From: Cercospora beticola
Taxonomy: Eukaryota > Ascomycota > Dothideomycetes > Mycosphaerellales > Mycosphaerellaceae
Assembly: GCF_033473495.1 (NCBI RefSeq)
Contig: NC_088935.1
Span: forward strand, 930,001 to 994,000
Direction: 5' to 3'
DNA length: 64,000 nt
A program made the position numbers and the translations under genes. How positions within the stretch are numbered: position 1 is the first letter of the stretch; each line of letters begins with the position of its first letter. The notes under the pieces were generated by a model. That model made no database searches. It saw only the letters and a program-made list of their open reading frames with translations, and was not told the origin of the DNA. Below are positions 2,931 through 55,492 of the stretch, piece by piece.

Positions 2931-3280
2931 AGGTACAGTATATGCGGTGCGACGAAGGCTCGGAAACATTCTGAAACAACGCCACACAAGGCAAAGATCG
3001 ATGCGATAGCGGTGCCTCCTACTCAATCAATTTCTAGCTCGAGGAGAGCAATACATGCCTCGAGAATACGAGCTTACATTTGCACAAAGCTACAGAGCGA
3101 TGGCGACGAAAACGCGACCTCTTCCGTGAACGTCTTTGATGAAGTCGTCAAGTTCGGTTGCCTGCTTCGCTGGGGTCAGCGGTAGAGGTCGCAGGAGCGC
3201 GCATTGCACTGCCCGCCTCCACACAAGGCTGTATCTTGCTCCTTCGACCTCGATTTCTACCATCCACCACTTTCAACGAG
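2931..3280. other. Intergenic, 5' flank of HET gene
   Basis: No independent gene is seen. The HET frame stays open upstream to 3158, but the clean ATG at 3281 is the better start, because the codons before it look like leader sequence. Confidence 0.4.
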
Positions 3281-53798: not shown

Positions 53799-54088
53799 GG
53801 CCAGGTCGCAGACGAGAAAGACAGAGAACCAGAGAAATGAAAAGTCGTGAAATTTTCACACAAAAACCCTTTGCGTTGCGATTTGAATGATAAAAGTATA
53901 TGCTTCAGATCTAAAAAAAGTAGAAAAGCACCCCGCTGCTATTGAGTTTGGTTGTAACAGCGCAGAGATTCGCAACGCTTTCGACAAAAATGCAATGCCC
54001 TCCATCGATGTTGCTTGATGAATTGAGTCGAAGTACCGCTTGCTGGCTGTCGAAATTGCTTGATGCGCACCGCTTCCTCCATCACCGC

Positions 54089-54244
54089 TTACATCAAAGT
54101 GCAGTCGGTGTAGTAAGGGCCCTTCTTGCCCTGCAGAACGCAATCGGTGTAGTAAGGACCCTTCTTGCCCTGAAGAACGCAGTCGGTGTAGTATGGGCCG
54201 GACTTGCCCTTCTTCTCAGCGAACATTTCGGTGGTGGCGAACAT
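54089..54244 (-). CDS. Tandem-repeat CaaX peptide, candidate a-factor-like pheromone precursor
   Basis: An ORF of 51 codons: ATG at 54244-54242, TAA at 54091-54089, no intron. After the leader MFATTEMFAEKKGKS come three copies of GPYYTDC. Copies 1 and 2 are followed by VLQGKK, and copy 3 ends the protein as CTLM. CTLM fits a CaaX farnesylation box, and each internal copy would expose CVLQ, also CaaX-like. Lys-Lys pairs separate the copies. The 39-bp units vary mostly at synonymous third positions (GGC/GGT, GAC/GAT, CTT/CTG), so the peptide is under purifying selection. Upstream there is a CAACC-rich leader and a GATATAAG TATA-like element. Multi-copy CaaX precursors are known from Rhodosporidium (rhodotorucine A). 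Function here is inferred. Confidence 0.75.
   Translation of the reverse strand: MFATTEMFAEKKGKSGPYYTDCVLQGKKGPYYTDCVLQGKKGPYYTDCTLM
54095..54205. repeat. Three-copy 39-bp tandem repeat encoding the peptide units
   Basis: On the minus strand each unit reads GGY CCN TAC TAC ACC GAY TGC then two to three variable codons and GGC AAG AAG. Units 1 to 3 differ at scattered, mainly third-codon positions. This repeat is coding, not a simple satellite. Confidence 0.8.
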
Positions 54245-54366
54245 CTTGTTTGGTTGGTGGGCTGGTTGGGTTGGTTTGTTGGTGTTGGTGACTGGCTAGC
54301 TAGTTGTCGTAGTGAGTGACTGGTGGTGAGTGAGGGGTTGAGATCTTGGGTTGGGGGATGGGTTCT

Positions 54367-54378
54367 TATATCGCTACA
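54367..54378 (-). promoter_or_regulatory. TATA-like element of the repeat-peptide gene
   Basis: The minus strand reads GATATAAGAA about 125-135 bp before the ATG at 54244, with a CA-rich leader between. The position fits a fungal core promoter and implies the tiny ORF is transcribed strongly. Confidence 0.45.
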
Positions 54379-54520
54379 TTGCTGGTTTTGAAGACAATGG
54401 GTTGCGGTTAGTGATTGTGCTGCTGTTCGCGGTCGCCGAGCATGTGTCTAGAGCGCTGGGCGGTGGAGATTGTGGATTTGGGGTGTTAGTATTGTAGTTG
54501 CGGTCCGGACGTAGTCAGCC

Positions 54521-54531
54521 GAACAAAGGAA
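54521..54531. promoter_or_regulatory. HMG-box-type site upstream of the repeat-peptide gene
   Basis: GAACAAAGGAA on the plus strand, TTCCTTTGTTC on the minus, contains the CTTTGTT core bound by fungal MAT-HMG/Ste11-like regulators of pheromone genes. It sits ~280 bp before the ATG. A 7-mer occurs by chance often, so this is suggestive only. Confidence 0.3.
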
Positions 54532-55492
54532 ATTTTTGAGAAGTTCACCTGTGCACATTTTCCATTGTTCTCATGCAATGAATTGTTCCCTTGCACAATC
54601 AGAACGCATGGCTTGGCTTAGTCTCGTGAACAGTAAGGCTGGCTGTGCAATCGCGGCTAGACTTGAACTTGGAGATTTTGCACGATCCATACCCAGCGCA
54701 TGACTGCAGCGTGTTCCCAATCCGGACCCTAAGCGGAAATGAGCGAGGTGGTAACAAGGGCACACCTGCTTCGGTACACGATGAGCGATTTTGTTCTCCT
54801 CAGCCAAGCTTGAGGCTGTGCTCGTCCCCGCAACCTCGACTACGAAAGCGCAAGATTAAACAAACTTAGCTCACAAGAGACAGGCTTGTCCCTCGTCTTG
54901 TGGTCGATGCTAAGCCAGAGTGCGGTGGCTTTGCTTGGCGAGATGTCACTGATGCATGTCCGCTCGTCGAGCCGCCATAGCTTGATAGCAAGTCACGCCG
55001 ACAGTTGGAGATGAAGGAAAATGCCTCATAGCAGAAGCTGCCCTGGGAAACACGCCTTGTGACGAGCTAAGCGCCCATATGGCCTTCAGCTGGCTGCAAG
55101 CTGTACTCCACCTGTAGGAGCAGCTTGGTTGCGAGGACAAGTGTGCTTGGCCTTCATGTGTGATCTCTTTGCGCATCAGTGGATCGCGCTCGGCGGTAAA
55201 TCAATTCTCGGCGTCATGTGAGGCCTCATTGCTTCTCTGCGGTTTTCGCTGCGGCGGGAGTGGTGGTGGTGGGGTGAAGAGAGGTTGCAAATAGAGTTCA
55301 TTGGATGCCGAACGTGCTGCGAGAAGTCTGCTGCCAAGACCAATGATGGCATTGCCAGAGCTCGCCTGCTCCACTTTGCCAACGGCAGCCATTGACAACG
55401 AGCTATGGCTTTGCGGCGAGAGGTAGAAGTATGTATACACCACTTCCCTTCCCCGAGAGAAGCTGTTTTGGAGCTCCATCTCACAGATCACC

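Follow-up and report, generated by a model that had tools for sequence, protein, structure and literature searches.

The sugar-beet leaf-spot fungus Cercospora beticola carries two paralogous genes for short tandem-repeat precursors that end in a CaaX box, and the gene described here, one of the two, probably makes a tandem-copy, lipid-modified (farnesylated) mating pheromone of the a-type, as judged from its sequence. It lies at 54089-54244 on the minus strand of the window, i.e. the whole 64,000-base stretch analyzed (bases 930001-994000 of contig C1); searches of the organism's own genome covered 36.07 Mb in 10 contigs. The gene has 51 codons and translates as MFATTEMFAEKKGKSGPYYTDCVLQGKKGPYYTDCVLQGKKGPYYTDCTLM*, a three-copy CaaX peptide precursor recognized by translation, selection and codon bias. 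It can be seen that, first, translation and selection place the core GPYYTDC at 54179-54199, 54140-54160 and 54101-54121 (copies 1 to 3, all on the minus strand) and, secondly, that the tails after these cores are VLQ, VLQ and TLM. Copies 1 and 2 form internal CaaX boxes, CVLQ, at 54170-54181 and 54131-54142, and the C-terminal box, CTLM, is translated from 54092-54103 (minus strand) with the stop codon directly after it. Three GPYYTDC copies with CaaX-compatible tails, the last of them C-terminal, were what a sequence-only reading had reported, and the translation bears this out. The same reading had called the gene hidden, which is true only in part: a C. beticola database entry, RHO25_000387, is a 71-aa 'uncharacterized protein' made of the same 51 residues and an extra N terminus of 20 residues. 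Nearly the whole of the window protein consists of repeats of a 12-13 residue unit, and a Pfam scan matched it to no family.

Sequence searches of the own genome revealed a second intact gene, with six copies, at 2689568-2689795 (minus strand) of contig C3. It encodes MGKSGPYYTDCTVQ and then five KNGPYYTDC units with the tails VLQ, VIQ, VLQ, VLQ and VLQ; the stop codon directly follows the last CaaX, and the product has 74 aa. In a global alignment the resemblance between the window and C3 loci appears confined to coding sequence, starting at GKSGPYYTDC. A further relative was found in Cercospora zeina. With the length range raised, BST61_g895 was the single match among 1350 candidates from annotated proteins. 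This model is 155 aa long; counted from an internal Met it has 79 aa, reading MGKTGAYYTDCTLQ and then five GKSGPYYTDC units with the tails VLQ, TLQ, TLQ, TLQ and SLM, and it ends in CSLM. Searches with the window protein (one match among 4 candidates) and with the alignment of the two genes (one among 436) both returned only the C. beticola entry. Relatives were sought among annotated proteins only, and missing matches elsewhere in the Dothideomycetes say little.

Across the three genes, which hold 3, 6 and 6 copies, the unit can be written K-x-G-[PA]-Y-Y-T-D-C-[VTS]-[LVI]-[QM]. The core is GPYYTDC in 14 of 15 copies and GAYYTDC in one, the tail is [VTS][LVI][QM] in all 15, and each gene ends exactly at its CaaX (CTLM, CVLQ and CSLM). 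Farnesylation prefers CaaX tails with Leu, Ile or Val at a2 and Gln or Met at X, and every one of the 15 tails is of this type (X is Gln in 13 and Met in 2). Copy number thus varies around a constant core, a point that the sequence-only reading had proposed to check, and C. zeina, the single further species with a relative, keeps the Cys and the terminal CaaX, loss of which would have counted against that reading. A pattern scan with TAYTAYACNGAYTGY pointed to no more members of the family, its two-mismatch matches (1854) not exceeding those in a reversed control (2140); the zero-mismatch matches listed omit the six C3 copies although these are present in the DNA. Likewise rejected was a Pfam match of the C3 protein to PF08793 (2C_adapt, 2-cysteine adaptor; 31.4 bits versus a cut-off of 22), which probably reflects regular Cys spacing; the window protein gave no match to this family. 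A PDB sequence search with the C3 protein yielded 8 matches up to E 10, the best of them (E 0.023) to an rRNA-processing protein, and nothing useful.

It might be objected that the frame is open by chance within a minisatellite and is not a gene, as the frame is short and the C3 region also contains 35-36 base tandem repeats with broken frames. In our view this explanation is refuted by the absence of nonsynonymous changes in nine cores, by the occurrence of the same frame at two loci and in a second species, and by codon bias. First, the cores of the window gene differ only silently (pairwise, 6 synonymous and 0 nonsynonymous differences), which agrees with the earlier remark that the copies vary mostly at silent sites; with the tails included there are 9 synonymous and 9 nonsynonymous differences, the latter arising from two residues that set the last tail apart. 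The nine C. beticola cores, compared in 36 non-independent pairs, show 95 synonymous and 0 nonsynonymous differences (pS 0.61, pN 0.000), and between the window and C3 genes pS is 0.54 and pN is 0. When the three tail residues are added, pN is 0.083 versus a pS of 0.63 for all pairs and 0.128 versus 0.458 within the window gene, and all tail changes remain CaaX-compatible. Gene conversion can homogenise repeats, yet it would erase silent differences too. The coding frame is also the least variable of the six, with 3 of 10 columns varying, all in the tail, versus 4 to 9 columns in the other five frames.

Secondly, codon adaptiveness is 0.904 for the window gene and 0.869 for the C3 gene, versus 0.67-0.83 for ten long ORFs of the window, some of which run from stop to stop and may include introns. 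Not one of 2000 random synonymous recodings reached the observed codon bias, for either gene. Thirdly, the window holds 566 frames of 20-150 aa that run from an ATG to a stop, and this gene is the single one with at least three copies of any 7-mer; no frame with a three-copy 7-mer arose in 20 random sequences of 64 kb that kept the first-order base transitions. CaaX endings numbered 3 (strict) or 4 (broad) in the window, versus random means of 1.15 and 4.30. Because a CaaX ending alone is not rare, the weight rests on the repeats, the selection and the relatives. An antisense frame of 109 aa (53990-54319, plus strand) runs through the repeats of the window gene; it was considered as the gene and rejected, as its residues vary between copies. 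An antisense frame of 91 aa is present likewise at the C3 gene, and such open frames look like a by-product of the codons used.

Upstream of the window gene, a TATA-like element (TATAAG) was located by motif match at 54365-54370 on the minus strand, 126 bases before the ATG at 54244. HMG-box regulators bind sites of the AACAAAG kind, and a motif of this type at 54522-54528 (plus strand) offers a weak lead; AACAAAG occurs 7 times in the 64-kb window, i.e. 0.066 times per 600 bases. Comparison of the protein start of RHO25_000387 with the DNA points to a candidate upstream mini-exon, MRW, at 54693-54701 (minus strand), with the donor GTATGG next to it. It is possible that the extra 20 residues of this entry correspond to the mini-exon and donor together with an acceptor just before in-frame 5' sequence. 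At the C3 gene, GTAAGT...CTAAC...CACAG just before the ATG (donor at -83) looks like a 5' UTR intron. It was also observed that ACAATACTAAC precedes the ATG of both genes, at 54485-54495 (minus strand) of the window and at 3032-3042 (minus strand) of locus L004 on contig C3, i.e. at -251 and -249. The flanks otherwise look unrelated around it, with a few 9-mers in common upstream of the two genes. This shared sequence could be an intron branch site (TACTAAC), a common regulatory site, or chance.

At a distance of about 0.85-1.1 kb, the C3 gene has a neighbouring tandem array whose period is 35-36 bases and whose frames are broken (L004:3640-3910, contig C3; plus strand, opposite to the live six-copy gene); it appears to be a decayed array of the K-x-GPYYTDC-type unit. 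In gapped alignments with the live unit, five of its six segments beat all 300 shuffles each, and the sixth did not. An ungapped comparison gave only two matches that reached the best shuffle score of 22 of 36, one equal to it and one scoring 23. The likeness of the array to the live unit is therefore visible only with gaps allowed. A weak protein match at the array (E 0.014) contains one stop. We infer from these sequences that arrays of the GPYYTDC family are born and lost. A possible remnant, YTNCMIQKN, was noticed on the minus strand near C3:2690425.

KEP and dikaritin precursors have a signal peptide and dibasic Kex2 spacers. The short tandem cores with basic spacers seen here recall such Kex2-processed secreted repeat peptides or RiPP precursors. 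This interpretation is largely refuted: hydropathy, the sole measure applied, gave no signal peptide or hydrophobic leader (the highest 9-residue Kyte-Doolittle mean is 0.90 for the window protein and 0.27 for the C3 protein), the dibasic site is not conserved, and all three genes end at a CaaX box. Lacking a signal peptide, the precursor should therefore not meet the Golgi Kex2. The Lys two residues before the core Gly is kept in every copy, and the rest of the spacer varies (GKK, KN or GKS across the genes). The idea that the Lys-Lys spacers serve as cleavage sites is weakened by this variation between the genes and by the lack of a leader that would bring the protein to a Kex2-type protease.

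The absence of a hydrophobic leader also suits a small CaaX repeat protein that is tethered to membranes inside the cell and never exported, and CaaX proteins are common on the cytosolic face of membranes. Such a tether is nevertheless very improbable, given a protein that is nearly all 12-13 residue repeats, a copy number that varies, and no Pfam family for the window protein.

Preferably, the precursor would be matured as an a-type pheromone. Farnesyltransferase would lipidate the Cys of the C-terminal CaaX (X being Met or Gln), after which Rce1/Ste24-type proteases would remove aaX and ICMT would methylate the Cys. An upstream cut would free GPYYTDC or KxGPYYTDC, about 7-9 residues long, as a farnesylated methyl ester, and a Ste6-type ABC exporter would release this lipopeptide, whose target would be the STE3 receptor in the partner mating type. 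As for the internal copies, cleavage behind the Gln of CxLQ would uncover the CaaX boxes one after another, so that a single precursor would yield several lipopeptides, a scheme also proposed for rhodotorucine A. Such a cut is suggested by the internal cores, which are under no less constraint than the final copy. Alternatively, only the last copy may mature, according to the ordinary a-factor logic of a single CaaX, with the internal copies as by-products of tandem duplication. Farnesyltransferase requires a C-terminal CaaX. The available text of one report describes the maturation enzymes of rhodotorucine A as unknown, and it records that fertility persisted when the Kex2 sites of the Trichoderma precursor HPP1 were mutated (PMC3068285). 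On the other hand, the many differences among the internal cores are all silent, and their tails are CaaX-compatible. Gene conversion could blur the constancy of the cores, yet the copies differ in DNA. Maturation of the last copy only, a variant inside the pheromone reading and not to be added to the other explanations, seems rather unlikely to us. Taken as a whole, the fuller proposal is tentative, quite possible and still somewhat short of probable: that the K-x-GPYYTDC genes are the a-factor of Dothideomycetes (at least of Cercospora and close kin), unreported in the literature examined and arisen independently, that cleavage behind CxLQ matures all internal copies by exposing successive CaaX boxes, and that gene and repeat numbers change by birth and decay of arrays.

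Family searches of the own genome showed that an STE3-type receptor and CaaX-modification families are present. STE3 was matched on contig C7 (E 4e-57), STE2 on C1 and the STE24-type N domain on C9; ICMT was matched at two loci, one of them weak, and the prenyltransferase beta-type family gave 4 matches, grouped into three loci. Of 14 named control genomes, 5 were matched by the ICMT model and 1 by the STE24-type model, and none by STE3, STE2 or the prenyltransferase. Eukaryotes in general need CaaX processing. Because of this, and because the control genomes match some of the families, the CaaX enzymes are necessary and not telling. One alpha-factor pattern gave 9 single matches versus 3 in the control, and none of the 6 loci read on both strands, out of these 9, shows a repeated precursor; other alpha-factor sequences would escape this pattern. 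Partial MAT1-1-1 alpha-box matches were seen at C5:191481-191669 and C2:1431125-1431313, one of them with stops. They fit a paper of 2014 whose title reportedly refers to MAT exon fragments in C. beticola.

The lipopeptide might be prenylated and exported and yet have a role other than partner recognition, e.g. autocrine signalling or as a host-facing peptide. In the available text of the Leotiomycete report, expression of the putative a-factor did not follow mating type in the three species examined (PMC10569646); a peptide with a CaaX is therefore not necessarily a mating signal, and it is mainly for this reason that we call the pheromone probable and go no further. Moreover, as far as the accessible parts of two reports tell, the sexual stage of C. 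beticola has never been seen and some regions are without evidence of sex (PMC5431814, PMC12034460). Against this, mating-type ratios were consistent with 1:1 in all but one C. beticola population and frequent sexual recombination was inferred, according to the portion available of the second report (PMC12034460), and the genome holds the STE3 and STE2 matches. A role apart from recognition is thus improbable in our judgement, less so than an intracellular tether. As to the tandem-copy, prenylated a-type pheromone that the sequence-only reading had proposed, the repeats, the CaaX, the C. zeina relative and the receptor and modification families speak for it, and its Lys-Lys cleavage is not supported.

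According to the available text of the 2023 Leotiomycete study, filamentous ascomycetes other than Sordariomycetes had no known a-factor before that candidate (PMC10569646). Among the literature matches listed, drawn mostly from papers outside subscription, we found no report of a Dothideomycete a-factor; the matches listed likewise contained none of a pheromone gene of this kind in C. beticola or C. zeina, and, to judge by their titles, the papers matching the strings GPYYTDC or YYTDC do not concern fungi. With a concrete candidate, found as two genes and as a relative in a second species, the a-factor question becomes directly testable in the Dothideomycetes, a class with many crop pathogens. 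A known pheromone would also give a tool to look for the unseen sexual stage of C. beticola.

The proteins were compared with known precursors, each described here from the available part of its source. Short proteins of up to about 100 aa ending in CaaX or CpaX are typical of a-factors, and the C. beticola products, 51 aa (...CTLM) and 74 aa (...CVLQ), are of this kind. The putative Leotiomycete a-factor resembles them as a short CaaX-ending protein from outside the Sordariomycetes that is unannotated in most genomes; it differs in its Ser/Thr-rich N terminus, a Gly-Tyr motif in 87 proteins, a mostly CTVM end and a length of 45-64 aa, and the available description makes no mention of internal CaaX repeats (PMC10569646). 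The Ser/Thr-rich N terminus and Gly-Tyr motif of Sordariomycetes and Leotiomycetes were not seen in the window protein, judged by eye. The signal peptide of KEP and dikaritin precursors was likewise not seen, and their dibasic spacers have no conserved counterpart.

HPP1 of Trichoderma reesei, an h-type (hybrid) precursor needed for male fertility, is like the window protein in being small, in having no predicted signal sequence and in carrying three motif copies, the last at the extreme C terminus as a CaaX (PMC3068285). The window gene shares the three copies with a C-terminal CaaX, and its sister gene has six. In contrast, the HPP1 motif is (LI)GC(TS)VM, discussed as CPAX, whereas Cercospora has K-x-GPYYTDC with [VTS][LVI][QM] (PMC3068285). 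Kex2 sites like those of the h-type are not conserved, Lys-Lys occurring only in the window gene; the available text also reports that mutation of the HPP1 Kex2 sites left fruiting and ascospore discharge intact and that some h-type proteins have no Kex2 sites (PMC3068285). HPP1 belongs to a different fungal class from Cercospora, and no sequence relation is apparent by eye.

The Cercospora architecture matches the Huntiella a-factors still more than HPP1. The former have 12-aa repeats each with a CpaX, several genes and broken copies (PMC10182648; PMC13037118). They differ in that their cores begin with Arg and almost always have Pro before the CpaX, in a hydrophobic N terminus, and in belonging to the Sordariomycetes (PMC10182648, PMC13037118). 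The hydrophobic N terminus, which is the rule for Ceratocystidaceae a-pheromones, is absent from the C. beticola proteins. We claim no homology to HPP1 or to the Huntiella factors, since the cores have another motif and the Cercospora N terminus is neither hydrophobic nor rich in Ser/Thr. The rhodotorucine A precursors of Rhodosporidium toruloides share tandem cores and CAAX-like spacers, a likeness in working and not in descent; they come from a basidiomycete and were set beside the Cercospora core by description (PMC3068285). Tandem CaaX precursors with unlike cores in Sordariomycetes, basidiomycetes and now Cercospora bring into sharper focus the way in which internal copies come to be cleaved and lipidated.
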